Source of the DNA: Microvirga rosea
GTDB taxonomy: Bacteria > Pseudomonadota > Alphaproteobacteria > Rhizobiales > Beijerinckiaceae
Reading direction: 5' to 3'
Length of the DNA: 64,000 nt
Assembly: GCF_020595095.1 (NCBI RefSeq)
Contig: NZ_JAJDOP010000005.1
Span: 186,001 to 250,000 of the forward strand
Below are positions 23,084 to 49,468 of the stretch, one piece after another. Numbering within the stretch: position 1 is the stretch's first letter; every line of letters begins with the position of its first letter. The notes beneath the pieces are model-generated. The model ran no database searches and was not told the origin of the DNA. It saw only the letters and a list, made by a program, of their open reading frames with translations. A program made the position numbers and the translations under genes.

Positions 23084-23195
23084 GGCAGGGAAACGAACGG
23101 CAGATCTTCGCCGTCGGCGCAGCGATGTGAGACCGGAATTGCCTTTCCCGCGCGTTCAGTGATTGCCCCTCGATATCATTGTTCTCATTTTGTTC

Positions 23196-23224
23196 TTGAC
23201 TGGCGGGACAAGCTGAGCTATATC
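23196..23224 (+). promoter_or_regulatory. Sigma70-type promoter of repeat copy A
   Basis: TTGACT (23196-23201), a 17-bp spacer, and TATATC (23219-23224) make a near-consensus housekeeping promoter. The same boxes and spacing occur in copy B although 5 spacer bases have changed. The predicted transcript starts near 23231. No ribosome site or gene follows, pointing to a non-coding transcript. Confidence 0.65.
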
Positions 23225-23230
23225 GTTACG

Positions 23231-23549
23231 CAGATCAGGTCCTGACGAGGGGCGCACTCGCGAGGCGTCGCAAGAGCGGGACCGGACACGGTCCCGTGCT
23301 CGCTTCCTACGCAGAAGCAAGTGACGGGAGGCCCAGGATGCTTGGGCGGGTTGTCGGGATCGGTCGCAGGCCCCCGTCGCACGAGACGGATCCCGCCTGC
23401 GGCGAGACCTGAGCCTTGCCTCTCCTGTCCGCCTAAAAGAACCGTGCGCGAAGAGGCCTCCCGGCTCTTCCCTTCTCCTCATCCGCGAGCCGGGCTGCCC
23501 GACGCGCCACCCTCGATCGCTTCCCCTCCGGGCCACTCAGCCCGGAGGA
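23231..23549 (+). ncRNA. Candidate structured non-coding RNA, copy A
   Basis: Downstream of the conserved promoter, about 320 nt are packed with hairpins. GGGACC/GGTCCC pairs at 23278-23295. GCTTC-CTACGCA-GAAGC pairs at 23302-23318. CCCGGCTC (23460-23467) pairs with GAGCCGGG (23487-23494). CCTCCGGGC/GCCCGGAGG closes the region. Compared with copy B, the second hairpin has changed both arms yet still pairs and keeps ACGCAG. The last stem is kept while its loop differs. I see no tmRNA, RNase P, SRP or 6S signature. The 3' end is uncertain because no T-run follows the last stem. Confidence 0.55.
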
Positions 23550-23576
23550 CATGGCCCCATGCCGTGACGCGCTCCG

Positions 23577-23724
23577 CCGTCATTCCGGGGCGAGCCTCAG
23601 CGAGAGCCCGGAACCCAGAACCACGACCGTTCAGGAGAAAGAGCCATGGCAGCCGTTGCGTTCTTTTCCAGCACCCTCAGCGTGTATGGGTTCCGGGCTC
23701 GCCTGCGGCGCCCCGGAATGACGG
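23577..23724. repeat. 148-bp palindromic intergenic unit, copy 1
   Basis: The ends CCGTCATTCCGGGGC and GCCCCGGAATGACGG are exact 15-bp inverted repeats. Inside are a second pair, AGCCCGGAACCCA and TGGGTTCCGGGCT. The whole unit can form a long stem or cruciform. It resembles the REP-like palindromes common in methylobacterial and bradyrhizobial intergenic DNA. It forms the 3' part of repeat copy A, and the same-sized unit is in copy B. Confidence 0.85.
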
Positions 23725-23735
23725 TGGTGCTCTGT

Positions 23736-23880
23736 CCTTCCGGGGCGAGCCGCGCGAGAGCCCGGAACCCAGAGCCGCTAACGATCCCGGATCAGGAGCC
23801 ATGGCAGCCGCGCACCCGTCCACAAACCTCAGCGGCTCTGGGTTCCGGGCCCGGCCCGCAGGGCCGTCCCGGAATGACGG
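23736..23880. repeat. 148-bp-type palindromic unit, diverged copy 2
   Basis: A second, diverged unit directly follows the first. It has TTCCGGGGC with CCCGGAACCCA on the left and TGGGTTCCGGG with CCCGGAATGACGG on the right. The interior keeps CAGGAGCCATGGCAGCC. The 39 bp between it and the next gene contain a further CCCGGAACC remnant. Confidence 0.8.
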
Positions 23881-23919
23881 GGGTGCTCTATCGTCCCGGA
23901 ACCCGGGCCGTTTCAAGGA

Positions 23920-24936
23920 TCAGGAAACTTGAACGATCAGCTTGCCGAAGTTCCGCCCTTCGAGAAGTCCGATAAACGCGTCCGGGGCGCTTTCGAGGCC
24001 CTGCACGATATCTTCCTTGTACCTGACGCGCCCGTCCGCGATCCATTGCGCCATGTCCCTGTAGAAGGCGGGCCGCTGGTCGACGAACTCCCTCTGGATG
24101 AAACCGCGGATCAACAGGCTCTTGGTGAGAATGTCCCGCATGAGGATCGGCAGCCGGTCCGGTCCCTCGAAAGGTCCGGTGCTGTTGTATTGGGCGACAA
24201 GGCCGCAGACCGGAATGCGGGCGAACGGATTGAGCAAGGGGAAAACCGCATCCCACACGGCTCCGCCGACATTCTCGAAATAGACGTCGATGCCGTTCGG
24301 GCAGGCGGCCCTGAGCTCCTCGGCGAAAGTCGGCGAGCGATGGTCGATGGCGGCATCGAAGCCGAAGGCGTCCTTCACCACGGCGCACTTGTCTGCGCCG
24401 CCCGCGATCCCGACAGCCCGAGCTCCCTTGAGGCGCGCGATCTGCCCCACCGCCGAACCGACCGGTCCGCTTGCCGCAGCCACCACCACGGTCTCGCCGG
24501 GCTTGGGCTGCGCAATGGTGAGCAGTCCCGCATAGGCCGTAAAGCCGGGCATGCCGAGAACCCCGAGGGCCGTCGTCACGGGCGCGGCTTCCGGATCGAG
24601 CTTGCGCAATCCCGTGCCGTCGGACACCGCATGGGATTGCCATCCCGAATGCGACAAGACGATATCGCCGACGGCGAAATCCGGATGGCGGCTCTCGATC
24701 ACTTCGGCGACCGTACCGCCTTCCATCACTTGGCCGATCCCCACCGGAGCGGCATAGGACTTCGCATCGCTCATCCGTCCCCGCATATAGGGATCAAGCG
24801 AGAGATAGCGGATCTTGAGCAGCACTTCGCCCGTTCCCGGAGCCGGAACCGGAGCTTGCACGACGTTGAAATTCGCAGGCGAAGGCCGACCGGTCGGGCG
24901 CGAGGCGAGGACGACCTGGAGGTTATGTTCCGGCAC
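23920..24936 (-). CDS. NADP-dependent oxidoreductase, CurA / leukotriene B4 12-hydroxydehydrogenase type
   Basis: 338 residues of the zinc-free medium-chain reductase family. Motifs are YLSLDPYMRGRMSD near residue 45, MPGFTAYAGLL near 130, nucleotide-binding AAASGPVGSAVGQIARLKGA near 153, then GGADKC and FENVGG. Such enzymes reduce alpha,beta-unsaturated carbonyl compounds with NADPH. It lies 57 bp downstream of the DUF2218 gene and may share its transcript. Physiological substrate unknown. Confidence 0.9.
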   Translation of the reverse strand: MPEHNLQVVLASRPTGRPSPANFNVVQAPVPAPGTGEVLLKIRYLSLDPYMRGRMSDAKSYAAPVGIGQVMEGGTVAEVIESRHPDFAVGDIVLSHSGWQSHAVSDGTGLRKLDPEAAPVTTALGVLGMPGFTAYAGLLTIAQPKPGETVVVAAASGPVGSAVGQIARLKGARAVGIAGGADKCAVVKDAFGFDAAIDHRSPTFAEELRAACPNGIDVYFENVGGAVWDAVFPLLNPFARIPVCGLVAQYNSTGPFEGPDRLPILMRDILTKSLLIRGFIQREFVDQRPAFYRDMAQWIADGRVRYKEDIVQGLESAPDAFIGLLEGRNFGKLIVQVS

Positions 24937-24993
24937 AGCGTAAACCTTTCAATAGGGAGAGGGAATCATGAATGTCCCCGGAGCATCGCCGGT

Positions 24994-25284
24994 CTACCCC
25001 TCGCGAGTCCACACGATCTCCAGCGGTTCCCGGAACGCAAAGCGCAGCAGATGATCGGCGACGACCTGCTCCATGCGGGAGATCCCCTCCTCCGATGCGC
25101 CGCTGAGCGTGATGCGCAGGTGATCGGGGCCCGCCTCCAGGATGCAGGGTCCGTTCGGCAGCGGGATGTCGGCGCGCTCCGCATTGTAGGTGAGATCAGG
25201 GAAGCGGTGGCTCCAATGCTTGCTGAGCTGGGTCAGGTACTTGCTGGCGTGCTCGGTGCGAACCTCGGAACGGGACATGATCAT
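24994..25284 (-). CDS. DUF2218 domain protein
   Basis: 96 residues, a stand-alone DUF2218 domain. Recognisable features are ASKYLTQLSKHWSHRFPDL and the end VVADHLLRFAFREPLEIVW. DUF2218 has no established activity; it is often found near or fused to siderophore-interacting reductases, and a fused version occurs at 20261-21343. Starts at ATG 25284 behind GGAGAGG; ATG 25278 is an alternative. Confidence 0.85.
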   Translation of the reverse strand: MIMSRSEVRTEHASKYLTQLSKHWSHRFPDLTYNAERADIPLPNGPCILEAGPDHLRITLSGASEEGISRMEQVVADHLLRFAFREPLEIVWTREG

Positions 25285-25518
25285 CGAAACGGTTCCTCTC
25301 CATCAACGGCGCGGGACTATCGGACGATAACGACCGAAGAGCTGAAGAATAGGGACCTTCGGGAACGGGCGGCAGAATGGCGGCGAACATATGTGCCATG
25401 CACCCCGGGCCGCTGACTTTCGGGACGCAGCCCTATGCGAGGCGGGACGGTGATCGGCGGCGGGCCGCTCGCGGGATCGCGGAACTCAGAAGAAGAGATA
25501 TGTTTGGGAAGGAATATT

Positions 25519-25594
<76 letters not shown>

Positions 25595-25678
25595 ACGCTG
25601 GCCGCGGTGATGGGGCACCGCGGAAAGGATCGCCGCCGAGAGGCAGCGGCGCTTCTATAGTCGGGTCCGATCAGAGGT

Positions 25679-26059
25679 TCAAGCCTCTTCATCGTCCTCC
25701 AGATCACTGTCGATCAGGTCCGACACATCGTCGTCCCCTTCCTCTTCATCCTCAAGGAAGGTGTCGTCGTCGGCCACGTCATCGGCCACGTCGATATCGT
25801 CGTCGGTCGGAAGATCCTTATCGGCCTCGCCAGCCTCGACCTCGTCGAGTGACACCATCTCGGCGCCGGCCGTCTCGAGCTCGGTCTCGTCCTCATCCTC
25901 GGTCGAACGAGCAACGGCAGGAGCCGCCACGCGGCTGAGTGCCGTAACCTGAAAGACGGTGCCGCATTTCGGGCAGACGGCGGGATCTCTGTTGAGATCG
26001 TAGAATTTCGCGCCGCAGCTCATGCACTGGCGCTTCAAGCCGAGTTCCGGTTTGGCCAC
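25679..26059 (-). CDS. TIGR02300 family zinc-ribbon protein (FYDLN acid)
   Basis: 126 residues. The N-terminus has a two-CxxC zinc ribbon, CMSCGAKFYDLNRDP followed by CPKCGTVF, that defines the family. The rest is a very acidic tail (about residues 50-126) with almost no basic residues. Found in alphaproteobacteria, usually beside aroA; function unknown. The start is GTG at 26059 (MAKPELGLKRQ), as the upstream extension is not conserved in style. Confidence 0.9.
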   Translation of the reverse strand: MAKPELGLKRQCMSCGAKFYDLNRDPAVCPKCGTVFQVTALSRVAAPAVARSTEDEDETELETAGAEMVSLDEVEAGEADKDLPTDDDIDVADDVADDDTFLEDEEEGDDDVSDLIDSDLEDDEEA

Positions 26060-26191
26060 GGGTTCATGCCTCAATGTGAATGTTGGGAAGGCTCCGTTAG
26101 TCGCGAGGGCCCCCCTTGTCAAATAAGAAATTGCAGGAGAAGTCCAGACAGGGCCGCCTGCCCGGATGACGGCACCGAATGCCCGTGTTAG

Positions 26192-27574
<1,383 letters not shown>

Positions 27575-27581
27575 TGCATCC

Positions 27582-28211
27582 ATGATTATTGCAATCGACG
27601 GCCCCGCCGCCTCCGGCAAAGGAACGCTCGGCAAGCGCCTGGCGGACCATCTGGGCTTCGCCCATCTCGATACGGGCCTCTTGTACCGTGCGGTTGCTTC
27701 GGTCCTCCTCGGACAGGGCATTCCGCTGACGGACCGGGACGCGGCGGCCGACGCCGCACGGAATCTCGACGTCAGCCATCTGGATGCCCCGGACCTGCGC
27801 GGCGCTGCGATGGGCGAGTCCGCCTCGGTGATCTCGGCCTACCAGCCGGTGCGGGATGCGCTTCTCGCCTTCCAGCGCCAGTTCGGGAGCCTGGAGCCGG
27901 GCGCGGTGCTTGATGGCCGGGACATCGGCACGGTCGTCTGCCCCGACGCGGAGGTCAAGCTCTTCATCACGGCGACGCCGGAAGAGCGTGCCCGTCGCCG
28001 TCATCTGGAGCTTGTCCGGCGAGGTGAGGACGTCACCTACGAAACGATCCTCACGGATATCCGGCGCCGGGACGAGCGGGACATCAACCGGGCAACCGCC
28101 CCCCTCAAGGCTGCGGCCGACGCGATCACCCTCGACACGACGAATCTCGACGCAGACGGCGCCTTCCAGGCCGCCCTAGCCATTGTGGACAGGAAGCGAA
28201 GCAAAACTTGA
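27582..28211 (+). CDS. cmk: Cytidylate kinase
   Basis: 209 residues. P-loop GPAASGKGTLGKRLADH at about residue 7, LDTGLLYRAVA, the CMP-site GAVLDGRDIGTVVCPDA near 110, and lid region RRRDERDINRATAPLK. It phosphorylates CMP and dCMP. It follows aroA by 7 bp, the usual alphaproteobacterial order, but rpsA does not follow. Confidence 0.96.
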   Translation: MIIAIDGPAASGKGTLGKRLADHLGFAHLDTGLLYRAVASVLLGQGIPLTDRDAAADAARNLDVSHLDAPDLRGAAMGESASVISAYQPVRDALLAFQRQFGSLEPGAVLDGRDIGTVVCPDAEVKLFITATPEERARRRHLELVRRGEDVTYETILTDIRRRDERDINRATAPLKAAADAITLDTTNLDADGAFQAALAIVDRKRSKT

Positions 28212-28278
28212 CCTTGCGTCGTGCCAGGAAGCTGGCACACTTCAACGGACCAGACCGGCTCCTCAGGGGAGATTACCG

Positions 28279-29082
28279 ATGGTTCGTTCCGGCTGTATGC
28301 GTTTCGTTGCGGGGCTCTTCCTGGTCCTGGGACTGTTCAGCGCCCCGCCGAAGGCCAAGGCGCAGACGGAGATCGACCTCGCCCTCGTTCTGGCGGTCGA
28401 CATATCCTTCTCCATGGACACGGAAGAGCAGGCTCTGCAGCGCGAGGGGTTTGCGCAGGCGTTTCGCTCCCCGCTCGTCCACGAGGCGATCCGGGCCGGG
28501 CTGGTCGGCAGGATTGCCGTCACTTATGTGGAATGGGCCGGGGCCTCGGACCAGAAGGTGATCATTCCCTGGACCGTCCTCGACAATTCCGAGAGCCTGA
28601 TGGCCTTCGCCGACCGGATCTCGTCGACACCGTTGAGCCGGGCGCAACGGACCTCCATCTCCAGCGCCATCGATTTCAGCTCCAAGCTCTTCGACGAGCT
28701 CGACGCCACCGCGACCCGCCAGGTCATCGACGTGTCGGGGGATGGTCCCAACAACCAGGGCCGCGGCGTGGAGCAGGCGCGGGATGACGCGCTTGCGAAG
28801 GGCATCATCATCAACGGGCTGCCGATCATGCTCCGCAAGCCCGGCTACCTCGACATTCCCGAACTCGACATCTATTACAGGGACTGCGTCATTGGAGGTC
28901 AGGGGTCTTTCATGGTTCCGGTTCGCGAGCGTGATCAGTTCATCAACGCGATCAAGACCAAGATCCTCCTCGAAGTCGCCAATCTCACCCCGCAGATCCC
29001 CCGTATCGAACGCATCCAGAATCCTCCCCGGGCCAATTGTCTGACCGGCGAGATGCAATGGCGCGATCGCTGGAACAACTGA
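28279..29082 (+). CDS. DUF1194 secreted von Willebrand-like protein
   Basis: 267 residues with a Sec signal (MRFVAGLFLVLGLFSAPPKA) cut before QTEIDL. The mature domain opens with LALVLAVDISFSMD, a MIDAS-like DxSxS metal site, and continues with RTSISSAIDFSSKLFDEL and VIDVSGDGPNNQG. DUF1194 proteins share the vWA fold and occur in alphaproteobacteria; function unknown. Start chosen for GGGGAG eight bases upstream. Confidence 0.88.
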   Translation: MVRSGCMRFVAGLFLVLGLFSAPPKAKAQTEIDLALVLAVDISFSMDTEEQALQREGFAQAFRSPLVHEAIRAGLVGRIAVTYVEWAGASDQKVIIPWTVLDNSESLMAFADRISSTPLSRAQRTSISSAIDFSSKLFDELDATATRQVIDVSGDGPNNQGRGVEQARDDALAKGIIINGLPIMLRKPGYLDIPELDIYYRDCVIGGQGSFMVPVRERDQFINAIKTKILLEVANLTPQIPRIERIQNPPRANCLTGEMQWRDRWNN

Positions 29083-29093
29083 CCTAAGATCTC

Positions 29094-29471
29094 ATGCAGA
29101 AAATGACATTGGCGCTCGTGGCTCACGACGCCAAAAAGGATGACATGGCCGATTTCGTCGCCATGCATGAAAATGCTCTTCAGCCCTTCACCCTCTACGC
29201 CACCGGCACGACCGGCGGACGGGTCATGGAACGGTGCCCGTCTCTGACCGTGACACGTCTGAAGAGCGGCCCCCTTGGAGGCGATCAGCAGATCGGCGCG
29301 ATGATCGCCGAGGGCAGGATCGATGCGCTGTTCTTCTTTGTCGACCCGCTGTCCCCTCATCCGCACGACGTGGACGTGAAGGCTCTGATGCGGCTGGCCC
29401 TCGTCTACAACATTCCCATGGCGCTCAACCGGGCGACCGCCGAACGGTTGATTGCCAGCTTCGCCCCATAA
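29094..29471 (+). CDS. mgsA: Methylglyoxal synthase
   Basis: 125 residues. It converts dihydroxyacetone phosphate to methylglyoxal. Family motifs are [10 protein letters not shown] at the N-terminus, [11 protein letters not shown] near residue 41, [17 protein letters not shown] and [18 protein letters not shown], which include the catalytic aspartates and the phosphate-binding threonine/glycine turns. It is 11 bp after DUF1194 and may be co-transcribed with it. Confidence 0.95.
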
Positions 29472-29478
29472 GGCACTC

Positions 29479-31947
29479 TCATGTCCCTCGCGGCTTGGCG
29501 CGTCGCGTCGGAGGAGCCGTGAGCGGATCCTCCGGCCAGGGATGCTTGGGATACTGGCCCCGCATGTCAGCCCGCACGGCGGCCCAGGAACCGCGCCAGA
29601 AGCCCGGCAGGTCCCGGGTGATCTGGATCGGACGCTGAGCCGGCGACAAGAGGTGCAGGATCAAGGGCACCCGTCCGCCCGCCAGGGTCGGATGTCGATC
29701 GAGCCCGAACAGCTCCTGAACGCGCACCGCCAGAACAGGCCCTTCCTCCGCGCCATAATCGATCGGGATCTGCGAGCCGGTCGGCACCTCCAGATGGGTC
29801 GGCGCTTCCGCATCGAGACGACGCTGGAGATTCCAGGGCATGAGCCCCCTCAGCGCTTCGCTGAGGTGATCCGGGCCGAGATCGGCAAGACCGGTTTTCC
29901 CGACAAGGTGCGGTGCAAGCCATTCCTCGGCCGTTGCGGCGAGAGCCTCATCGGAGAGGTCCGGCCAGTCCTCTCCCTCGGCTTTCCGGAGGAACATCAC
30001 CCGCTCCCGCCATTGGGCAAGCGCTTTGGACCAGGGCAGAGCCGATAATCCCAGTCCCATCAGTCCCGTGGCAAGAGCTCTGGCGCTTTCCTCCGTTGCC
30101 GGAACCGGTAGCGGCCGCTCGTTCAGGACGAGGGCGCCGTAACGCCGGACCGCACGGGCCCGGAGCGCTTTGGCCTGTCGGTCGAAAACGATCTTGTCCC
30201 GGCGCTCGATATCATCGCCCAACATGACATCGATCTCATCGGGCGCAATCGCCGCCGCCGCGAGGATCCGCGCCGAGGCCGCTCCGCCCGCGATTTCCGC
30301 GATGGCCAGGTAGGGCTCCTTGGCCAATCGATCGTGCGCTTCAAGGGAAGCCCCGCGGCCGTTGGCCATGAGGTATTCGCCGGGCTTTCCGCGGGCTTTC
30401 GCCAAACGGTCAGGGTAGGCCAGGGTCAGGAGCGCACCAGGGGAAAGCGCGGCGTCGGAAGAGCGCGCGGACGCTCCGCCGCGCGCCCAGCCTTGAGCCA
30501 TGCGGCGCATGTCCTCGGCACGCCGCGATCGGTCGCGGCGGAAGCGCTCCACGCGCTCGCCAAGATCCGTCCCGTCGCCGCCAAGCCCCCGCTCGACGAG
30601 GACCGCAGCGATATCGGCGGCCTCCCTTCCCTGCCGGCTCTCTCCCGCTTTGAGCACCATGCGGGCAAGGCGCGGCGGCAAGGGAAGGTCGCGCAGGTGA
30701 CGGCCGGTCTCGGTGATACGGCCATCCTCATCGAGAGCATGAAGCTGCTGAAGCAGTGCCCGGGCCTCCTTGAGCGCCGGCGGCGGCGGCGGATCGAGGA
30801 ACGCGAGAGTAGCCGGATCCGTCACGCCCCAGGCCGCGCAATCGAGGAGCAGCGGCGCCAGATCCGCCGACAGAATTTCAGGGCGAGCAAAAGCCTCGAG
30901 CGCGCCGGTGGCGGCTTCCTCCCACAGACGATAGCAGATGCCGGGCTCGGTTCGTCCCGCACGGCCGCGTCTCTGATCAGCCGCCGCACGGGAAACACGC
31001 ACGGTCTCGAGCCGCGTCAGGCCGATCCCCGGCTCGTAGACGGGAACCCGGGCGAGACCGGAATCGACAACCACACGAACGCCCTCGATGGTCAACGATG
31101 TCTCGGCGATGGACGTCGCAAGCACGACCTTCCGACGGCCGGGCTTTGCCGGACTCACCGCCAGGTCCTGTTCGGCCCGATCGAGAGCCCCGTAGAGCGG
31201 GGCGATATCGACAGCCGGATCGGCGATGCGCTCCCGAAGAAGCATCTCGACGCGCCGGATTTCCCCCTGTCCAGGCAGAAACACGAGAATCGACCCGCTT
31301 TCCGCCCGCAAGGCGCGCGTGACAGCCTCCGCCACCAGCTCGTCGATTCGCCGGTTGGGATCACGCCCCAGGTAATGGGTCTCAACCGGATAGGCCCGCC
31401 CCTCGGACCGGATGACAGGTGCATCTGAAAGGAGCTTGGCGACCCGCGCGCCGTCGAGAGTCGCAGACATGACCAGAAGGCGCAGATCTTCCCGAAGGCC
31501 GGCCTGCGCATCGAGCGCCAGGGCAAGACCTAAATCCGCATCCAGGGAGCGCTCATGGAATTCATCGAACAGAACGGCGGCGATCCCGTCGAGGGCGGGA
31601 TCGCCCAGGATCATTCGCGCGAACACACCCTCCGTCACCACCTCGATTCGGGTCTTTCGGCCGACCTTGGAGCCGAGACGAACCCGAAGCCCGACCGTTT
31701 CGCCGACGGCTTCACCGAGGGTTCGGGCCATCCGGTCGGCCGCCGCACGGGCTGCGAGCCTGCGCGGTTCGAGCACGATGAGCTTGCGCCCTTCGACCCA
31801 GGGTTCTTCGAGAAGCGCAAGGGGAACACGCGTCGTCTTGCCGGCGCCGGGAGGAGCCACAAGAACCGCGTTCGAGCGCACGCGAAGGCTCGCCGTCAGG
31901 TCGGCGAGCACCTCATCGATGGGAAGTCGGGTCTCAAAGGCACGCAT
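29479..31947 (-). CDS. hrpB: ATP-dependent helicase HrpB
   Basis: 822 residues, normal length for HrpB. DEAH-type motifs: Walker A APPGAGKTTRVPLALL near 37, LEPRRLAARAAADRM, DEFHERSLDADLG near 127, VMSATLDG, GRAGRTEPGICYRLW, then the HrpB-specific C-terminal domain (RRYGALVLNERPLP, MPWNLQRRLDAEAP, ending SWAAVRADMRGQYPKHPWPE). An RNA helicase-like protein of unclear cellular role. Convergent with mgsA, 7 bp between stops. Confidence 0.95.
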   Translation of the reverse strand: MRAFETRLPIDEVLADLTASLRVRSNAVLVAPPGAGKTTRVPLALLEEPWVEGRKLIVLEPRRLAARAAADRMARTLGEAVGETVGLRVRLGSKVGRKTRIEVVTEGVFARMILGDPALDGIAAVLFDEFHERSLDADLGLALALDAQAGLREDLRLLVMSATLDGARVAKLLSDAPVIRSEGRAYPVETHYLGRDPNRRIDELVAEAVTRALRAESGSILVFLPGQGEIRRVEMLLRERIADPAVDIAPLYGALDRAEQDLAVSPAKPGRRKVVLATSIAETSLTIEGVRVVVDSGLARVPVYEPGIGLTRLETVRVSRAAADQRRGRAGRTEPGICYRLWEEAATGALEAFARPEILSADLAPLLLDCAAWGVTDPATLAFLDPPPPPALKEARALLQQLHALDEDGRITETGRHLRDLPLPPRLARMVLKAGESRQGREAADIAAVLVERGLGGDGTDLGERVERFRRDRSRRAEDMRRMAQGWARGGASARSSDAALSPGALLTLAYPDRLAKARGKPGEYLMANGRGASLEAHDRLAKEPYLAIAEIAGGAASARILAAAAIAPDEIDVMLGDDIERRDKIVFDRQAKALRARAVRRYGALVLNERPLPVPATEESARALATGLMGLGLSALPWSKALAQWRERVMFLRKAEGEDWPDLSDEALAATAEEWLAPHLVGKTGLADLGPDHLSEALRGLMPWNLQRRLDAEAPTHLEVPTGSQIPIDYGAEEGPVLAVRVQELFGLDRHPTLAGGRVPLILHLLSPAQRPIQITRDLPGFWRGSWAAVRADMRGQYPKHPWPEDPLTAPPTRRAKPRGT

Positions 31948-40836: not shown

Positions 40837-42381
40837 ATGGTCATGCGCGTTTCCACTGTCGCCTTCGAAGGGATCGAAGCGCGTGCGGTCGATGTGCAGG
40901 TCCAGATCGCCCCCGGCAATGTCGCCTTCATGATCGTCGGGCTTCCGGACAAGGCCGTCGCCGAATCCCGGGAGAGGGTTCGCTCGGCATTGATTGCTTC
41001 GGGCCTGGCTCTTCCGGCCAAGCGAATCACCGTCAATCTCGCGCCGGCGGATCTTCCCAAGGAGGGGAGCCACTACGACCTCCCGATCGCTCTGGGCGTC
41101 ATGGCGGCCATCGGGGCCATTCCGGCCGACGCCCTGAGCGGATTCACGGTTCTGGGTGAGCTGGCCCTCGACGGATCGATTACATCGGTTGCAGGAGTCC
41201 TGCCCGCCGCGATCGCGGCCTTCGAGCGCCAGCAGGGCCTTATCTGCCCCGCCGCCTGCGGCGCCGAGGCGGCGTGGGCAGGTAGCGACATCGAGATTCT
41301 GGCTCCCCTATCGCTGATTCAGCTGGCCAATCATTTCAAGGGCAGCCAAGTCATGGTGCGCCCGAAACCGGCCATCATGCCCGCTTCGGGCTCCATGCCG
41401 GATCTTCGGGACATCAAAGGACAGGAGAGCGCAAAGCGGACTCTCGAAATCGCCGCGGCGGGCGCCCACAACCTCCTGATGTGCGGTCCGCCGGGAGCCG
41501 GGAAATCGATGCTCGCCCAGCGCCTGCCCTCGATTCTGCCGCCCCTTGCGCCGCGGGAGCTGTTGGAGCTTTCGATGATCCAGTCGGTCGCAGGGCTCCT
41601 GGCGGATGGCGCGTTGACGAACCGGCGCCCTTTTCGGGCGCCCCACCATTCCGCCTCCATGGCGGCGCTTGTCGGCGGAGGATTGAACGCTCGCCCGGGC
41701 GAGGCGTCGCTGGCGCATCACGGGGTGCTGTTCCTGGACGAGCTGCCGGAATTCCAGCCCCAGGTCCTCGATTCCCTGCGGCAGCCGCTCGAGGCGGGCG
41801 AGATCCTGATTGCGCGGGCGAATCATCGCGTGACCTATCCGGCCCGCTTCCAGCTTGTCGCCGCCATGAACCCCTGCCGCTGCGGCCAGGGGACGGAGCC
41901 CGGATTCGTCTGCCGTCGACAGCCGAACGAGCGATGCATCGCCCAGTATCAGGCGCGGATTTCGGGCCCTCTCCTCGACCGGATCGATCTTGTGATCGAT
42001 GTTCCGGCGGTCACGGCGGCCGACCTGATCCTGCCGCCGCCGCCGGAAGGCTCGGCGGAGGCCGCAAGCCGGGTCGCCCTCGCCCGCGACCGCCAGACCA
42101 GACGCTACGCGGCTCTCAAGCTTGACGGAATCACCACCAATGCCGCATGCCCACCGCCAGTTCTTGAAGAGATCGCGAAGCCGGACGCGGACGGCGCAGC
42201 CTTGATCCGCGATGCCGCCAACGCGATGCGCCTTTCGGCCAGAGGCTTTCACAGGGTCCTGAAGGTGGCGCGCACCTTGGCCGATCTCGACGATGACGAT
42301 CGAGTCCGCCGAATCCACCTTGCCGAGGCCCTATCCTACCGGGCAAACAGCGACCGGAAGCACAACACCGTATCGGCATGA
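40837..42381 (+). CDS. YifB/ComM family Mg-chelatase-like ATPase
   Basis: 514 residues. N-terminal Lon-protease-like domain (IVGLPDKAVAESRERVRSAL), central AAA+ domain with Walker A CGPPGAGKSMLAQRLPSIL near 218, FRAPHHSASMAALVGGG, Walker B LFLDELPEF, and cysteine-bearing MNPCRCGQ; C-terminal Mg_chelatase_C with RISGPLLDRIDLVIDVP. ComM of this family promotes branch migration in natural transformation. Start 40837 or 40843. Confidence 0.93.
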   Translation: MVMRVSTVAFEGIEARAVDVQVQIAPGNVAFMIVGLPDKAVAESRERVRSALIASGLALPAKRITVNLAPADLPKEGSHYDLPIALGVMAAIGAIPADALSGFTVLGELALDGSITSVAGVLPAAIAAFERQQGLICPAACGAEAAWAGSDIEILAPLSLIQLANHFKGSQVMVRPKPAIMPASGSMPDLRDIKGQESAKRTLEIAAAGAHNLLMCGPPGAGKSMLAQRLPSILPPLAPRELLELSMIQSVAGLLADGALTNRRPFRAPHHSASMAALVGGGLNARPGEASLAHHGVLFLDELPEFQPQVLDSLRQPLEAGEILIARANHRVTYPARFQLVAAMNPCRCGQGTEPGFVCRRQPNERCIAQYQARISGPLLDRIDLVIDVPAVTAADLILPPPPEGSAEAASRVALARDRQTRRYAALKLDGITTNAACPPPVLEEIAKPDADGAALIRDAANAMRLSARGFHRVLKVARTLADLDDDDRVRRIHLAEALSYRANSDRKHNTVSA

Positions 42382-42573
42382 GCTGGCTTGTGCGAAATCT
42401 TCCATCAGCACTTGGGGATAGGTGACAGAAATATTACAGGACCCTTGATAAGTCCCTCGCGAGCTTTGATCTTCTCTGTCACAAAATCGTTCGAAATGAG
42501 TTTTATGTCACAGCGCAAGGGCATTGGTCCTACCCACGGCCCGTCCGATCCGGTTTCATCGAACGAGGTCCTG

Positions 42574-43527
42574 ATGACGTCTTCCCGCCTGGACGAAACG
42601 GCAGTGTCTTCTTTTGCCCCGCCGCTGCCCCTGCCACCCGAAGAAGCAAGCTTCAAGGGAATGAGCCGATTTATTCCAGGCCTCGGCAAAGTTGTTCGGG
42701 ATCACGGGACCCTCGATCCAGCCCTCGGCCGTATCGGATCCCTGGAGGTTCGCCTCGCCACGACCGCAAAGGAGATCCGCCGCGCTCAGAAGCTGCGCTT
42801 CAAGGTTTTCTATGAGGAAATGTCTGCCGCCCCGACCGGTGCCGCTCTCTTGTCCCGGCGGGACGTCGATGATTTCGACGCGATCTGCGACCATCTCCTC
42901 GTTCTGGATCATGACGCGAAGGCCAAGCCGTTCCGCAAGCCCAAGCCCCAGGTCGTCGGGACGTACCGTCTCCTTCGCCAGGAAGTGGCGGATCGCCATT
43001 CCGGCTTCTACACGGCCGCCGAGTACGACATCGCCCCGATGATCAAAGCGCATCCCAACCTGCGCTTTCTCGAGCTCGGTCGCTCCTGTGTGCTGCAGCC
43101 CTACCGGAACAAGCGTACCGTGGAACTGCTCTGGCACGGCATCTGGACCTATGTGCTGCACCACCGCATCGACGTGATGATCGGTTGCGCCAGCCTCGAG
43201 GGCACGGATCCGCGCAATCTCGCCCTCCCACTCAGCTTCCTACATCATTACGCCTCCGCGCCCACGGAATGGCAGGCGAGCGCCGTGCCCGAACGCTTCA
43301 CGGCGATGGACATTCTTGCCAAGGAAGCCGTGGATCCGAAGGCGGCGCTCCACGCCCTGCCTCCGATGATCAAGGGTTACTTGCGCCTCGGCGCCAGCTT
43401 CGGTCGGGGTGCGGTGATCGACCGGCAGTTCGGCACGACCGATGTTCTGGTCATTCTGCCAGTTTCGGCGATCAACCCGCGCTACATCGACCATTTCGGC
43501 CCGACGGCGAACCGTCACGCGAGTTAG
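42574..43527 (+). CDS. GNAT-type acyltransferase, OlsB-like (COG3176)
   Basis: 317 residues from ATG 42574, which has GAGG five bases upstream; upstream in-frame ATGs at 42493 and 42505 would lengthen it. The core reads RAQKLRFKVFYEEMSA, DFDAICDHLLVLD, ELGRSCVLQPYRNKRTVELL and IDVMIGCASLEGTDP. These match the ornithine N-acyltransferase/'putative hemolysin' family that makes lyso-ornithine lipid. No olsA is nearby, so the lipid substrate is inferred only. Its stop overlaps the stop of the SDR gene on the other strand. Confidence 0.82.
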   Translation: MTSSRLDETAVSSFAPPLPLPPEEASFKGMSRFIPGLGKVVRDHGTLDPALGRIGSLEVRLATTAKEIRRAQKLRFKVFYEEMSAAPTGAALLSRRDVDDFDAICDHLLVLDHDAKAKPFRKPKPQVVGTYRLLRQEVADRHSGFYTAAEYDIAPMIKAHPNLRFLELGRSCVLQPYRNKRTVELLWHGIWTYVLHHRIDVMIGCASLEGTDPRNLALPLSFLHHYASAPTEWQASAVPERFTAMDILAKEAVDPKAALHALPPMIKGYLRLGASFGRGAVIDRQFGTTDVLVILPVSAINPRYIDHFGPTANRHAS

Positions 43528-44387
43528 TCAAACGCACCGGCTGCATGCAGGGCCGCGAGGCCCTCGCGATAGGTCGGATAGCGCAGGCGCACGCCGAGCT
43601 CCTCCTTCAGGAGGCGGTTCGCGATCCGCTTGTTTTCCTCATAGAAGCTGCGCCCCATCGGGCTGAGATCGGCATTCTCGAAGGGAATTTCAGGCGGCGG
43701 CGGCACGTGCGCCAGCTGCGCCGCGTAAGCGACGACATCCTGCGGCGGCGCCGGTTCATCGTCTCCCACATTGTAGATGGCGCCCGCCCGAGGTCGCCCG
43801 AGGGACGCGACCAGGACCGCGGCGATATCGTCCACATGGATACGGTTGAACACCTGTCCGGGCTTCACGATCCGTTGGGCCGTGCCACGGGACAGGTTGA
43901 CCAGTGCATTGCGTCCCGGCCCGTAGATGCCCGACAGACGGAAGATATGAATCGGCTTTCCGGTGGCGGCTCCCAAGCCGAGCCAATCCTGCTCGGCGGC
44001 CCAGCGCCGCTGCGAGGAGACGCTCTGCGGGCGCGCCGGAACGGTTTCATCCGTCCAGGCTCCGCCGCGGTCCCCATAAACACCGGTGGTCGAAAGATAG
44101 CCGATCCACGTCGAGCGCGACGCGGCAATGGCCTCCCGGAACCTTGCCAGCAGGGGATCCCCGTCAACGGAAGGCGGCGCCGAGACGAGGAGTGCGTCGG
44201 CCCGTCCGATCTCCTCGGCGACGAGGCCGGGATCGCAATCCTCCAGGGACAGCGCCGCGATGCCCTCGGCCGTGAGACGCCTGGCTTTGTCCGCCTGCCG
44301 CACGGTGCCGCTGATCCCGGACCAGGGGATCCCGGCCCGCATGAACGCATGCGCCGAATAGCCGAGCCCGAAGACGAACAATCTCAT
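43524..44387 (-). CDS. NAD(P)-dependent SDR-type epimerase/dehydratase (YeeZ-like)
   Basis: 287 residues. N-terminal nucleotide-binding [20 protein letters not shown], then [18 protein letters not shown] (active-site region), [12 protein letters not shown] and [16 protein letters not shown]. These are extended/atypical SDR features as in YeeZ. Role unknown. ATG overlaps the queG stop (ATGA), indicating coupled translation. Confidence 0.85.
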
Positions 44388-45553
44388 GCCACCGCCTCTT
44401 CGCGGTGAAGGGCCCGATCCCATTCCTGGCGCACGTTCTCATCCTCTTCTTGTTCCCGGCGGCTCGCCGCGTGGTGAGCCAACTCCTCGGGTGAAAGCAA
44501 TCGCGAGAGCGCCCAGACGGCCATGGCGCGAACAAGGGTAGAGCTGTCGTCGAGCAGGCGGAGCGCTTCCGCAGCAAGACGACGTTCGCCCGAATTGCCG
44601 ATGGCGATCAGGACATTGCGGATGAAGCGGTCGCGACCGGTCCGCTTGATGGGCGTACCGGCGAACCGGATGCGGAATTCCGCATCGTCGAGCCGCGCGA
44701 GGTCGGCGAGCGGCAGAGCGGCCAGATCATCCCGCTGCATGAGCCGGGTTTCCCTGGCCGTTTGGGCGAATTTGTTCCACGGGCAGACCGCCAGGCAATC
44801 ATCGCATCCGAAGATCCGGTTTCCGATCCCGCTGCGCAGATCCTCCGGGATGTGGCCTTTGTGTTCGATGGTCAGATAGGAAATGCAGCGTCTCGCATCG
44901 AGCCGGTAGGGCGCCGGGAAGGCCTTTGTCGGGCAGATGTCGAGGCAACGGCGGCAGGAGCCGCAATGATCGCGCTCGGGAGCGTCGGCCGGCAGCTCGG
45001 CCGTCGTGAAGATCGCGCCGAGAAACAGCCAATTGCCGAATTCCCGCGATACGATGACGGTGTGCTTGCCCTGCCATCCCAGGCCGGCGGCCTGCGCGAG
45101 CGGCTTTTCCATGACCGGCGCGGTGTCGACGAACACCTTGACGTCCGCGCCCCCCTTCGAGGCCAGGATGCCGGCGGCGTCCTTGAGCTTGCCCTTGATG
45201 ACGTCGTGATAATCCCGATTGCGGGCATAGACCGAGATTGCCCCGTGATCCTTCATGTCCAACGCGGCGAGCGGGTTCTCGGCGGGTCCATAATTGAGGC
45301 CGAGCAGGATGATGCTCTTCACGTCGGGCCACAGGGTCCGGGGGTCGGCCCGGCGCTCCGCCGTCTCGACCATCCAGTCCATGGATCCGTGGTGTCCTTC
45401 GGCCAGCCAAGCCTTCAGGCGCTCCGGCGCAAGGGGAATCCCGTCGGGGCGGGCGATGCGAACCACATCGAACCCGAGAGCCTGGGTACGGGCGATGAAG
45501 GCGCGCTTGAGGGCGTCACCCTCTAGAAGTCGAGGTTGTCGTAATGCTCCCAT
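44384..45553 (-). CDS. queG: Epoxyqueuosine reductase
   Basis: 389 residues. Last step of queuosine biosynthesis in tRNA wobble modification. Features: [29 protein letters not shown] with the catalytic aspartate, first cluster [15 protein letters not shown] and second [14 protein letters not shown], then a HEAT-like C-terminus. No good start exists inside the normal N-terminus ([10 protein letters not shown]); the nearest in-frame ATG at 45553 makes the gene overlap fzlA by 31 bases. The exact start is therefore uncertain. Confidence 0.93.
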
Positions 45554-46215
45554 GGGGGCATCCCCGGCACCCGGTCCGCCAGGAGCGCGCGAAAGGACGG
45601 CCGGGACTTGATCCTGGCGTACCAATGCTTCGCTGTTTCGTCCTCGTCCCATGGCACGTCGCCGAGATAATCCACAATCGACAGGTGAGCGGCCGCCGCC
45701 AGATCCGCGTAGGTCAGATGCTGGCCGGCGAGCCAGTTCCGGGTCGCGATCAGATAGCCGATATATTTCAAGTGGTATCGCACATTGGTCCGCGCTGCGC
45801 GAATCGCGCCCATGTCCGGCGGACCGCCTCCCAGTTCCACCGGCATGAACCGTTTGTAGATCTTTTCTGTGGCAAGGTAATCCGACACTTCCCCGTGGAA
45901 CTTGACCAGAAACCAATCGACGAGACGGCGCACCTCCACCCGCTGGCTCACATCCCGGGGCAGGAAGCGGCGATCGCCTAAGCCGTCTCCGTAGGTTTCA
46001 TCCAGATACTCCGCGATGACCGAGGAGCCCGGAACCGCCAGCCCGTTGTCATCGATCAACAACGGCAGATTCCCGGCCGGATTGACCTCCAGAAGCGGGA
46101 CGCGCCGCTCCCACGGCTTCTCCTCGACCATCTCCGGTTCGAGGCCCAATTCAGCCAGGACCAAGCGCACAAACCGCGAGTGCGGGCAGAAGGGATGATA
46201 ATGGAGGGTGGCCAT
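45523..46215 (-). CDS. fzlA: GST-like FtsZ-binding protein FzlA
   Basis: 230 residues with thioredoxin-like N-domain ([31 protein letters not shown]) and helical C-domain ([33 protein letters not shown]) ending HYDNLDF. That ending and the SIVDY..DVPW block match FzlA, the alphaproteobacterial cell-division factor that curves FtsZ filaments, rather than detoxifying GSTs. Next to queG and uppP. Start at MATLHYHP. Confidence 0.82.
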
Positions 46216-46392
46216 GAACCTGTCAGACGCGAAACAGGCGGCGAGAATAAGGCCGGTTTTCGTTAAGGCTTGGTAAGGAATTGTGGTGAATCTCATGTGC
46301 CCGGCGCAAACGGGGCACGATCCTCATGCAGGCTCCGCTTGACAGGTGCGCTCCCCCGCCTCCATGTGGCGCCGCTTTCAAGGTATCTGACG

Positions 46393-47190
46393 ATGTCGCA
46401 AATCATCGAGGCGTTTTTCCTGGGCCTCATCGAAGGGCTGACCGAATTCCTGCCGGTCTCGTCCACGGGCCATCTCCTGCTCGTCGGCCATTTCCTCGGC
46501 TTTGAATCGACCGGCAAAACCTTCGAAGTGCTGATCCAGCTCGGCGCGATCCTGGCGATCCTGTCGGTCTACTTCAACCGGCTCTGGGGCATCGCCCGCG
46601 CCCTGCCTTACGATCCCAACGCGCGGCGCTTCGTCATCGGCGTGCTGATCGCCTTTCTTCCGGCGGCTCTCATCGGCGCGGTTCTGCATGGGTTCATCAA
46701 GGAGGTGCTGTTCAACCCCTGGATCGTCTGCATGATGCTGATCGCCGGCGGGTTCGTGCTGCTTCTCGTGGATGCCATGCCCCTCGCCGCGGTCCATAAG
46801 GACGCCACGAAGTTCCCGCTCCCCATGTATCTGAAGATCGGATTCCTGCAGTGCCTCGCGATGATCCCCGGCGTATCCCGCTCCGGCGCGACCATTGTCG
46901 GCGCGATGCTGCTCGGCGCCGACAAGCGCGCGGCGGCGGAATTCTCCTTTTATCTCGCGATGCCGACGATGGCCGGCGCCTTTGCCTACGACCTTCTCAA
47001 GAATTACAAGGTTCTCTCGGCCAACGACGCCACCTTGATCGTGGTCGGGTTCATCGCGGCTTTCCTGTCGGCGCTGGTCGTGGTGAAGACTTTCCTGGAT
47101 TACATCTCGCGCCACGGCTTCGCGCCTTTCGCCTGGTGGCGGATCATTGTCGGTGCGGCGGGCCTCGCGGGCCTGATCGTGTTCGGCTGA
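46393..47190 (+). CDS. uppP: Undecaprenyl-diphosphate phosphatase
   Basis: 265 residues, polytopic inner-membrane protein. Signature motifs [20 protein letters not shown] near residue 12 and [20 protein letters not shown] near 160 carry the catalytic Glu, His and Arg. It recycles the lipid carrier for peptidoglycan synthesis. The start at [11 protein letters not shown] is in the normal family position. Confidence 0.97.
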
Positions 47191-47197
47191 GGGTGCC

Positions 47198-47431
47198 ATG
47201 AGCACACCCGGCGAAGCCCTCGCGGTCACCATCGCCATTACGGCCGCTCTCGCCGCCGTGATGCTGGGGATGCTCATCGGCTTGTCGAGCCCTCGCGCGA
47301 CGGAACCGGGCGCCTCGTGCCAGGAATGGACGGACGGCTGCGTGATCTGCAGCCGCAGGCCCAACGGCGCGGCCTGCTCGACGCCGGGAATCGCCTGCAC
47401 GCCGGGCCCTCTGCAGTGCCTCAAGCGTTGA
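47198..47431 (+). CDS. Small membrane-anchored cysteine-rich protein
   Basis: 77 residues. One hydrophobic helix (about 9-29) is followed by a C-terminal part with six cysteines (CQEWTDGCVICSRR and AACSTPGIACTPGPLQC). If the tail is periplasmic the cysteines could form disulphides. The frame starts 7 bp after uppP and is probably co-transcribed. I do not recognise a family; the regular cysteine spacing argues for a real gene. Confidence 0.6.
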   Translation: MSTPGEALAVTIAITAALAAVMLGMLIGLSSPRATEPGASCQEWTDGCVICSRRPNGAACSTPGIACTPGPLQCLKR

Positions 47432-47443
47432 GCGGCCCGGGCC

Positions 47444-48214
47444 CTAGGGCGCAGGCGTCTTGTCGGGACAGCGGCAAAGGTCGCTGATCGGGCAGCGCCA
47501 GCACTCGGGTTTTCGCGCCTTGCAGATGTAGCGCCCGTGCAGGATCAGCCAGTGGTGGGCATGAAGCCGGAATTCGTCCGGCATCAAAGCCTCCAGGGCT
47601 TCCTGGGTTTCAAGCGGGGTTTTGGTCAGCGCGAACGGGATGCGGTTCGTCACCCGGAAAATATGCGTATCGACCGCAATGCGCGGATCGCCGAACGCGA
47701 TGTTGACCACGACGCTGGCGGTCTTCCGGCCGACGCCCGGAAATGTCTCCAGGATCTCGACGGAGTTGGGAACCTTGCCGCCGAACTCCTCCACCAGACG
47801 CTTCGAGAAGGCGATCACGTTCTTCGCCTTCGTGTTGAAGAAGTTCAGCGTCTTGATGTATTGGCGCAGCCCCTCTTCCCCGAGCGCCAGCATCTTCTTG
47901 GGCGTGTCGGCAATGGGAAAGAGATCCCTTGTCGCCTTGTTGACACCCACGTCGGTGGATTGCGCCGATAGCGCGACCGCCACCAGGAGCGTGTAGGGAT
48001 TGGTGTGGTCGAGCTCGCCTTTCGGCTCCGGATTGAGATCGCGGAAACGCCGGAAGATTTCGGTCAACGTCGCGCGGTCGACCGGCTTCGGCATACGGAT
48101 CCGGATGGCCTTGCCGGTTGCCTTCGGAGCGGCTTTCGCCTTTCCGGTCAACGGGGGTACCAGGGCGGCTTTGGGTTTGGAAATGCGGCGGGGTGACCGC
48201 TTCAGATCGGACAT
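47444..48214 (-). CDS. nth: Endonuclease III
   Basis: 256 residues. Base-excision glycosylase/AP lyase for oxidised pyrimidines. Helix-hairpin-helix LETFPGVGRKTASVVV with catalytic lysine, VDTHIFRVTNRI with catalytic aspartate, and cluster C-x6-C-x2-C-x5-C (CKARKPECWRCPISDLC). The lysine/proline-rich N-terminal extension of about 50 residues is longer than E. coli Nth. Start at MSDLKRSPRR. Confidence 0.96.
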   Translation of the reverse strand: MSDLKRSPRRISKPKAALVPPLTGKAKAAPKATGKAIRIRMPKPVDRATLTEIFRRFRDLNPEPKGELDHTNPYTLLVAVALSAQSTDVGVNKATRDLFPIADTPKKMLALGEEGLRQYIKTLNFFNTKAKNVIAFSKRLVEEFGGKVPNSVEILETFPGVGRKTASVVVNIAFGDPRIAVDTHIFRVTNRIPFALTKTPLETQEALEALMPDEFRLHAHHWLILHGRYICKARKPECWRCPISDLCRCPDKTPAP

Positions 48215-48234
48215 GAGAGCGTTATAATCAGACG

Positions 48235-48744
48235 ATGGACACCGGCAAAGCGGCATTCGAGGATTTGGATCGGCTGGAGCGGCCCGTATTCGAGGCCGTG
48301 ATCCGTCCGCACCGATCGCTCGGACCGGAGGGTTTCAGGATCGTCATGATCCTCCTGTGTCTTTGCTCGATCATCGCGAGCCTGCCTTTCGTCATCATGG
48401 GTTTCTGGCCCGTCGCGGGGTTTTTCGGTCTCGATTTTCTCGGCCTCTACCTGGCCTTCCGAATCAACTACCGGCAGGGGCAATCTTTCGAGATTCTCGT
48501 CCTGACGCCCATCCGTTTGCTGCTCAAGAAGGTCAGTCATCGCGGCGAAGCGCGGGAGTGGTTGTTCAATCCCCTCTGGACCCGGCTCGACCGCCGGGAC
48601 GACGACGAATTCGGACTCCAGGAGCTGACCCTCGTTTCGCGCGGGCAACAGGTCGTCATCGCTCACGACCTATCGCCGACCGAGCGGGAAAGCTTCGCCG
48701 AAGCGTTCGGACGCGCTCTTTCGGACGTGAAGCGGGGCTATTGA
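48235..48744 (+). CDS. DUF2244 membrane protein
   Basis: 169 residues. Two adjacent hydrophobic helices (about 36-75, IVMILLCLCSIIASLPFVIM and VAGFFGLDFLGLYLAF) are followed by a cytoplasmic domain with EWLFNPLWTRL and a C-terminal LSPTERESFAEAFGRALSD. This is the DUF2244 pattern found in alphaproteobacteria, commonly next to nth. Function unknown. Divergent from nth with 20 bp between starts. Confidence 0.88.
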   Translation: MDTGKAAFEDLDRLERPVFEAVIRPHRSLGPEGFRIVMILLCLCSIIASLPFVIMGFWPVAGFFGLDFLGLYLAFRINYRQGQSFEILVLTPIRLLLKKVSHRGEAREWLFNPLWTRLDRRDDDEFGLQELTLVSRGQQVVIAHDLSPTERESFAEAFGRALSDVKRGY

Positions 48745-48813
48745 ACATCACATCACCTTTTGCCGCCCGGCCGTCATCGGGGACGCGCAGCGGATCGGGA
48801 CGATAGAGCACCC

Positions 48814-48961
48814 CCGTCATTCCGGGGCGCCGCAGGCGAGCCCGGAACCCATACGCGCTGAAGGTGAGGAAAGAGAACGCACCGGCTGCCATGGCTCTTT
48901 CTCCTGAACGGTCGTGGTTCTGGGTTCCGGGCTCTCGCTGAGGCTCGCCCCGGAATGACGG
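48814..48961. repeat. 148-bp palindromic intergenic unit, copy 3
   Basis: Same length and ends as the unit at 23577-23724: CCGTCATTCCGGGGC on the left and GCCCCGGAATGACGG on the right, with inner GAGCCCGGAACCCA and TGGGTTCCGGGCTC. Interior shares CATGGCTCTTTCTCCTGAAC in reverse. Confidence 0.88.
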
Positions 48962-48989
48962 CGGAGCGCGTCACGGCATGGGGCCATGT

Positions 48990-49306
48990 CCTCCGGGCTG
49001 GGCAGCCCGGAGGGGAAGCGATCGAGGGTGGCGCGTCGGGCAGCCCGGCTCGCGGATGATGAGAAGGGAAGAGCCGGGAGGCCTCTTCGCGCACGGTTCT
49101 TTTAGGCGGACAGGAGAGGCAAGGCTCAGGCATCGCCGCAGGCGGGATCCGTCTCGTGCGACGGGGGCCTGCGACCGATCCCGACAACCCGCCCAAGCAT
49201 CCTGGGCCTCCCATCTGGTGCGGCTGCGTGACCGCACGGACGGGACCGTGTCCGGTCCCGCTCTTGCGACGCCTCGCGAGTGCGCCCCTCGTCAGGACCT
49301 GATCTA
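48990..49306 (-). ncRNA. Candidate structured non-coding RNA, copy B
   Basis: Minus-strand counterpart of 23231-23549. The variable hairpin here is GTGCGG-TCACGCAG-CCGCAC (49218-49237): six pairs, none of the arm sequence shared with copy A, but ACGCAG is retained on the 3' side of the loop. The closing stem CCTCCGGGC/GCCCGGAGG (48990-49013) is unchanged while its loop differs. Other stems are identical. Transcript ends are inferred. Confidence 0.55.
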
Positions 49307-49312
49307 TGAAAC

Positions 49313-49341
49313 GATATAGCTCAGCTTAGTCCATCAGTCAA
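49313..49341 (-). promoter_or_regulatory. Sigma70-type promoter of repeat copy B
   Basis: On the minus strand, TTGACT (49341-49336), 17 bp, TATATC (49318-49313). Boxes and spacing equal copy A; the spacer differs in its first half (GATGGACTA versus GGCGGGACA), so conservation is not merely recent duplication of every base. Confidence 0.65.
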
Positions 49342-49468
49342 GAACAAAATGAGAACTTTGTCGCCAGAGAGAGATCCGACGTAAAAATGACAGGCCTGTC
49401 CTCGGCCACAGGAAACGGGTGTCGGAAACCCGGGAGACGGCTATGATCCGGCACAAAGGATCACGCCC

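Follow-up and report, generated by a model that had tools for sequence, protein, structure and literature searches.

OLE and ROOL are bacterial RNAs of about 600 nucleotides (nt), AbcR1/2 are sibling small RNAs (sRNAs) in Rhizobiales, and LexA control of small-peptide and type I toxin genes is known in Escherichia coli. Symmetric kissing loops in OLE and GOLLD are backed by switching from one palindrome to another, according to the account of these loops in a 2025 Nature paper (PMC12286853), and GTTC-N7-GTTC is described as the LexA motif of Alphaproteobacteria (PMC8565304; PMC3323433). The element considered here occurs as two inverted copies, A and B, in a stretch of 64,000 nt from Microvirga rosea (contig NZ_JAJDOP010000005.1, positions 186,001 to 250,000), referred to as the window. 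It is probably a LexA-repressed, self-pairing structured RNA that would be made in bulk after DNA damage. The observations that carry this reading are a stand-alone layout, a LexA motif at the promoter, helices formed by the promoter strand, the lack of a widely kept open reading frame (ORF), a high copy number, homogenisation of the copies in many genomes and a core hairpin with three alternative palindromes. An earlier note on the window mentions neither the LexA site nor the copy number, nor the palindromic loop.

Two inverted copies and their promoters

That note had reported two nearly identical inverted copies, and the alignment agrees: positions 23181-23297 are inverted relative to 49240-49356 and 93% complementary, positions 23309-23742 relative to 48796-49229 and 95% complementary, and the interval separating the aligned arms falls within a single variable hairpin, P3. 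In copy A this hairpin comprises GCTTC (23302-23306), the loop CTACGCA and GAAGC (23314-23318), and in copy B, on the minus strand, GTGCGG (49237-49232), the loop TCACGCAG and CCGCAC (49223-49218). Both arms have thus changed with pairing kept, as had been claimed, and ACGCAG, noted as retained in both copies, is present in 10/10 copies of the genome. The paired change is no coincidence, as the remaining eight copies carry either hairpin type or, in L004 and L007, variants with CTCTTGACGCAG.

Each copy begins with a box and a promoter. In copy A (plus strand) the box GTTCTCATTTTGTTC, of the form GTTC-N7-GTTC, occupies 23181..23195 and the promoter 23196..23224, with a -35 element TTGACT (23196-23201), a 17-base spacer and a -10 element TATATC (23219-23224). 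Transcription from it would start near 23231 and give a structured RNA of about 318 nt (23231..23548, both ends predicted), for which RNAalifold, counts of paired changes and an asymmetry between G-U and A-C pairs argue. Copy B has the same box at 49342..49356 on the minus strand, the promoter at 49313..49341 (TTGACT 49341-49336, TATATC 49318-49313) and the RNA at 48990..49306, its ends likewise predicted. The order of box, directly abutting TTGAC, 17-base spacer and TATATC is that of the genome's own copies generally, and GTTC-N7-GTTC stands at the promoter in 10/10 of them. The same motif, in either orientation, lies upstream of lexA and of both recA genes in this genome, and GTTCTTATTTTGTTC, the box at the second recA, recurs upstream of RNA copies in other species. 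The two recA genes (G000:C38:14054-14842 and C34:463352-464137) are both full, each with a LexA box. LexA would be expected to bind at the RNA promoters.

Among the matches listed, a box lies within 110 bases of the core in 60/80 hits from named genomes (a count that includes L100, L101 and L112, judged to be chance) and in 58/62 copies from genomes named Microvirga; of the four that lack it, two belong to M. tunisiensis and deviate by a single base, and two come from one metagenome-assembled genome. Over all lineages 126/181 distinct core matches have the box, and it abuts TTGA in 120/181. The chance expectation of a box in 110 bases, by arithmetic from equal base frequencies, is about 1 in 700.

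Promoters elsewhere are different; read by eye, they contain either TTGAC together with TTCCTAT/TAGGAA motifs or TTATCCCC. A recurring TATATTCCTAT/ATAGGAATATA-like motif was noticed by eye, in either orientation, in or beside eight promoters outside Microvirga (L034, L056, L064, L077, L094, L111, L158, L161), and may be the site of a further regulator. Also by eye, the TTGACA -35 element upstream of the start region is replaced by TTATCCCCGC in G325, G255 and G461 (L062, L067, L066 and others) and in L152, and by GGGGATAC..AATCCCCGC in G469 and Afipia (L065, L131); these promoters suggest an activator or another regulator. Genomes G469 and G074 have a recA with GAAC-N7-GAAC, and their inspected RNA copies have no box; in the remaining 6 of the 8 genomes inspected, the stretch examined showed no recA box. 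SOS control as the ancestral state is not supported, given the boxed recA and boxless RNA copies of G469 and G074. Given these boxless copies and the other promoters found elsewhere, LexA control appears to have been wired onto an older RNA in a particular lineage.

Predicted fold and palindromic apex

The structure was studied in 99 copies that bear a box by construction. All 99 were used for the P5 loop and the pseudoknot; L160 was dropped to leave 98 (64 short-form and 34 long-form) for the per-pair covariation test, the counts of double changes, part of the G-U/A-C comparison and the ORF test. RNAalifold predicted a like architecture for both forms, consisting of P1, a core hairpin, P2 (CGGU/ACCG), P3, P4 and P5 with a long loop; P4 is long in the long form, and the short form has a clear final hairpin. 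In copy A, P1 would span 23238..23283, pairing GGUCCUG (23238-23244) with CGGGACC (23277-23283), and enclose the core hairpin (23251..23269), which presents the palindromic hexamer TCGCGA at 23258-23263 (49279-49274 in copy B). P2 (23288..23445) would pair ACGGU (23288-23292) with ACCGU (23441-23445) and contain P3 and P4. The hairpin of the earlier note is P3 (23293..23328), with outer arms CCCGU (23293-23297) and ACGGG (23324-23328) and inner arms GCUUC (23302-23306) and GAAGC (23314-23318); the compensated allele of copy B lies at 49218..49237 on the minus strand. P5 (23446..23507) has a long G-poor apical loop at about 23468-23486, and a terminator-like hairpin, CTCCGGGC/GCCCGGAG, would close the 3' end at 23525..23548. 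In this genome the 3' arm of P1 has an alternative pairing, since GGGACCG and CGGTCCC at window positions 23278-23295 can close a local hairpin, with a similar one possible in L053; a conformational switch at this arm is possible.

A pseudoknot is also proposed, between GAGGG before the core hairpin (23247..23251 in copy A, base 23251 being shared with the core hairpin; 49290-49286 in copy B) and CCCTC after P5 (23510..23514; 49028-49024). The two motifs are located together in 96/99 box-bearing copies, and complements of the GAGGG/CCCTC type occur in several other genera, where the GC-rich background offers others too.

Counted on a tree, double changes that preserve pairing amount to 35.1 in the short form and 56.6 in the long, and those that disrupt it to 11.8 and 8.9; controls with slid pairing give 1.7-11.2 and 1.9-12.9, a difference that supports the earlier proposal of a structured RNA family. 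The preserving changes fall mostly in P1, P3, P4 and the short-form final hairpin (9.8 kept), and none falls in the core hairpin. P2 has a paired fraction of 1.00 in both sets with 2.0 double changes (short) and 0.0 (long), and the final hairpin of the long form, the set to which copy A belongs, is poorly aligned, 0.70 paired and has 0.0. The P1 of the own copies is included in the long-form set. Across genera, 6 of the 9 pairs of P1 changed on both sides in 12 sequences from other genomes, and P1 with the core hairpin (16 pairs) had a covariation score of 0.341, as against 0.186 +/- 0.021 in shuffles (0/500) and at most 0.152 when slid; the alignment behind these values, A3, holds those 12 sequences and was picked with the structure in mind, A4 having been set aside with P1 misaligned. 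Helices that covary beyond the null are therefore found in aggregate. Within helix cells, G-U exceeds A-C by 471:98 in the short form and 362:65 in the long, and given this excess, RNA of the promoter strand fits as the molecule under selection.

The P5 loop, where it could be delimited (75/99 copies), contains 42 G in 1495 nt. This raises the possibility of a family of trans-acting antisense sRNAs, siblings switched on by the SOS response that would pair with mRNAs through the loop, which is predicted to be unpaired and in one variant in this genome is CU-rich. Such a family is unlikely, as the loop sequence varies among the own copies and between species while staying G-poor, unlike a conserved seed.

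The apex of the core hairpin is UCNNGA, and accepted members carry UCGCGA, UCAUGA or UCUAGA only. With NN left free, the centre dinucleotides of the 181 distinct core matches among those listed were GC (153), AT (17), TA (9), GA (1) and CT (1). Four matches, L100 (GA), L101 (CT), L112 (AT) and L184 (GC), were set aside as chance at 11.9-23.5 bits with R1, a covariance model of the 5' domain only (65 positions, 16 pairs); the 15/15 accepted copies scored beside them, the most distant included, gave 35.8-88.3 bits. L100 and L101 pass a crude stem test and were excluded by R1 score and organism, the latter also counting for L112. With these four removed, 177/177 of the matches listed are palindromic. 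One genome (G325) has all three palindrome types, another (G133) two, and in a third (G099) one copy has AT and the three other aligned copies GC. The one-step intermediates UCGUGA and UCACGA were not seen among the matches listed, though both fitted the search pattern and would lose less score under R1 than the double changes do. Switching between palindromes is a sequence signature of symmetric kissing loops and, by analogy, may be read as a sign of self-pairing; the RNA would then form dimers.

Copies, neighbours and distribution

The genome comprises 5.0 Mb in 38 contigs. A 562-base query, of which roughly the first 370 bases are RNA-like, gave 126 matches: nine span all or nearly all of it, one spans bases 1-345, and most of the remainder are limited to about bases 390-562, a dispersed palindromic repeat resembling the repetitive extragenic palindromic (REP) type. 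Ten copies of the RNA are thus present, the number also found by R1. They have the promoter, the core and the 3' part in common, with a mean identity of 0.946, and differ mainly in P3, of which there are two alleles and variants. The REP-like repeat follows copy A at 23570..23742, outside the RNA model. In the window, REP-like repeats were observed at 23570-23900 and 48800-48970 (CATTCCGGGGCGAGC...GCCCGGAACCCA), with about 100 partial matches genome-wide.

In Microvirga, R1 found 562 copies in 41/48 genomes, 1-34 in each, with a median of 11 in genomes that had any match. Its scans were run with strict filters, so that weak matches are lost. Across the order, 7 of 397 genomes had matches (6/142 genera, 6 families; 1-10 copies each), and across the class (385 genomes) only the own genome did. 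The search for relatives by BLAST proposed in the earlier note was carried out over 119 genomes of the family and gave matches in 10, of which 6 were judged real: G000 (the own genome), G032, G099, G036, G077 and G074. Matches L037-L040, without an R1 match up to E=10, were judged to be chance. The genus is recognised as Microvirga from named loci, since Microvirga sp. ACRRW and M. solisilvae contain the copies known from G032 and G099. In three assemblies of 4, 8 and 4 contigs (G512, G517 and G537), contig C1 carries every copy (34, 29 and 27, respectively). For the gaps from the first to the last copy only, G512 and G540 had a lower coefficient of variation than random placement (P 0.0002 and 0.006, respectively) and G537 was borderline (0.063); spacing more even than random was not found in G517 and G527. 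G540 and G527 are low in copy number, with nine R1 matches each. No match was obtained in plasmids and phages by blastn, nor in viral contigs by an exact-pattern scan, and an origin from phage, plasmid or virus was rejected on this basis.

The dispersal of up to 34 copies per genome, and the REP-like repeat that directly follows 9/10 own copies and also occurs alone many times, are what would be expected of a selfish or passive DNA repeat, similar to a miniature inverted-repeat transposable element, a REP element or a bacterial interspersed mosaic element, whose palindromes act as DNA hairpins and on which promoter and LexA-like sequences ride along. We consider this quite unlikely for several reasons: G-U pairs are far above A-C; the LexA motif lies beside the -35 element in 58/62 Microvirga copies among the matches listed; sites are common across species, though the RNA bodies differ there; the plasmid, phage and viral scans described above gave no match; and all copies are confined to one contig in the three multi-contig genomes.

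Several sites, copy B's included, are common to different species, and these adjoin gyrA-, typA- and DUF2244-like genes, among others; copy B's site lies beside the DUF2244-like gene. At 20 shared-site pairs across species the identity of the RNA bodies averages 0.61, as against 0.62 in a sample of 257 random between-species pairs. Within genomes the identity is 0.84 over pairs (a value raised by the 45 own pairs) and 0.80 as a mean over 13 genomes. Many genomes, though not all, show the pattern expected of concerted evolution, and gene conversion may lie behind the alike copies.

The neighbours bear on whether the element is a cis-acting leader of the gene that follows, such as a riboswitch or attenuator. 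Some copies do lie a few hundred bases upstream of genes on the same strand. Nevertheless, in 97 distinct contexts, left from 102 rows once five doubly counted loci were removed, a simple heuristic placed the downstream ORF on the plus strand 50 times and on the minus strand 46 times, an orientation on which the leader was rejected; the recognisable downstream genes, which we take from their N-termini to be gyrA, typA, purA and genes for an ABC ATPase, an aminotransferase and a chorismate mutase, are functionally unrelated, and the RNA has its own promoter. A leader is accordingly scarcely credible. Each copy looks instead like a stand-alone gene, with its own promoter, an RNA of about 300 nt and no orientation towards its neighbours. 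By eye, a gene for a small Cys-rich protein (MSR..., C-R-rich, GPPCYF in some) was noticed after L010, L032, L033, L042 and L091, in different species.

It is also possible to read the transcript as the mRNA of an SOS-induced small peptide or type I toxin, given that LexA controls such genes in E. coli and that some own copies contain a 24-codon ORF (MLGRVV...) behind GGGAGG. This is highly improbable: first, the start and stop of that ORF are the same in 5/34 long copies, and in five sister copies (L004, L007-L010) it is disrupted by the loss of 1 nt. Second, an ORF with common start and stop is found in at most 12/64 short copies and 5/34 long ones. With no widely kept ORF the element looks non-coding, and the peptide-coding reading was rejected.

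Proposed action and comparison with known systems

It is suggested that, in Microvirga, LexA bound to GTTC-N7-GTTC beside the -35 element would block transcription, and that DNA damage, acting through RecA, would inactivate LexA, so that the copies are transcribed at the same time and large amounts of the RNA build up in the cell. The RNA would fold into P1 with its invariant core hairpin, a pseudoknot joining the 5' and 3' parts, a P2-P4 domain and P5 with its G-poor loop, and would form a kissing loop with other copies by way of the palindrome at the tip of the core hairpin. The assembly is proposed to work in trans, its exposed G-poor loops most likely serving to hold a partner; our guess for this partner is a protein, the ribosome or a different RNA. 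A more far-reaching reading, which we put forward tentatively and with some doubt, is that an undescribed RNA class, encoded by a LexA battery of up to 34 copies per genome that gene conversion would keep alike in many genomes, self-assembles via kissing palindromes into an RNA-only scaffold and constitutes an RNA branch of the Microvirga SOS response.

Several findings weigh against a structured RNA under LexA control. A per-pair G-test with a tree-based null, from our own script modelled on R-scape, returned 0/33,930 significant pairs in the short form and 1/54,285 in the long; since this test is nearly empty, the structural support is aggregate. P5, which is 0.91-0.92 paired, shows few double changes (3.0 short, 0.6 long), and the final hairpin has no T run. 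The pseudoknot arms hardly vary, and their flanks show no covariation (79 paired as against 77.0 expected for the inner position, 24 as against 21.2 for the next). The box is present in only 2/18 named hits outside Microvirga among the matches listed, both of them in Tardiphaga (2/3 there), so that SOS control is not universal to the family. Given that 7/48 Microvirga genomes have no R1 match under the strict filters, the RNA is dispensable or diverged there. Finally, in 5/13 genomes the mean within-genome identity is 0.62-0.69, several of these having both long and short forms.

If the LexA-controlled RNA is confirmed, a major RNA component would be added to the SOS response of Microvirga, a genus of soil bacteria described as including legume nodule symbionts, and in genomes with 20-34 copies the RNA could be among the largest gene groups under LexA. 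It would also offer a compact, multi-allelic natural RNA for tests of self-assembly, and a case of promoter rewiring around a conserved RNA, with LexA in Microvirga and other motifs elsewhere.

No known RNA signature had been recognised at the outset, and the Rfam searches concur. The region of copy A matched none of 4227 Rfam 15 families up to E=5, and the window at gathering score gave tRNA-Ala alone; this tRNA-Ala (GGC) lies on the minus strand at 25519-25594, some 2 kb away from copy A. Twelve loci from 12 other genomes gave four matches at E-values of up to 1, none of which reached the gathering score; two of them overlap elements, PyrR210 on L061 (1420-1487, same strand, 27.0 of 59 bits) and PrrB_RsmZ on L064 (1921-2045, opposite strand, 21.1 of 44 bits), both taken as chance. 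No description of the RNA was found in the literature on Microvirga non-coding RNA and LexA, alphaproteobacterial LexA sRNAs, and candidate or multi-copy RNAs of Rhizobiales, a search with subscription papers and preprints mostly outside its range; nor was the RNA found by term in the main text of two catalogues of candidate RNAs.

Methylobacterium-1 (RF01712) and Rhizobiales-2 (RF01723) are presented as candidate structured RNAs of the same order (PMC2864571); they differ from the present RNA in that neither appeared in the results of the Rfam searches described above. The AbcR1/2 siblings, in the accounts available, resemble it in that an alphaproteobacterial genome holds several related RNA genes, whereas the present RNA has far more copies, is larger and more structured, and has a LexA motif and no Rfam match. 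The likeness to tisB/istR and dinQ/agr of E. coli lies, as those systems are summarised, in transcripts under LexA; they encode membrane peptides, unlike the present RNA with no widely kept ORF. OLE, ROOL and GOLLD share with it the character of a complex folded bacterial RNA, ROOL being described with pseudoknots and a disordered linker (PMC12286853). At about 300 nt the present RNA is small beside GOLLD, of which many exceed 800 nt according to the same source, and it differs from all three in its many gene copies per genome, its LexA promoter and the lack of a match in phage collections or Rfam, and in that its oligomer is a prediction from sequence. Nevertheless, the switching described for loop L9.3 of OLE, between GGCC, GAUC and AGCU, and for L21a of GOLLD, between GC and CG (PMC12286853), is the same signature as that of the palindromic hexamer in the core hairpin.

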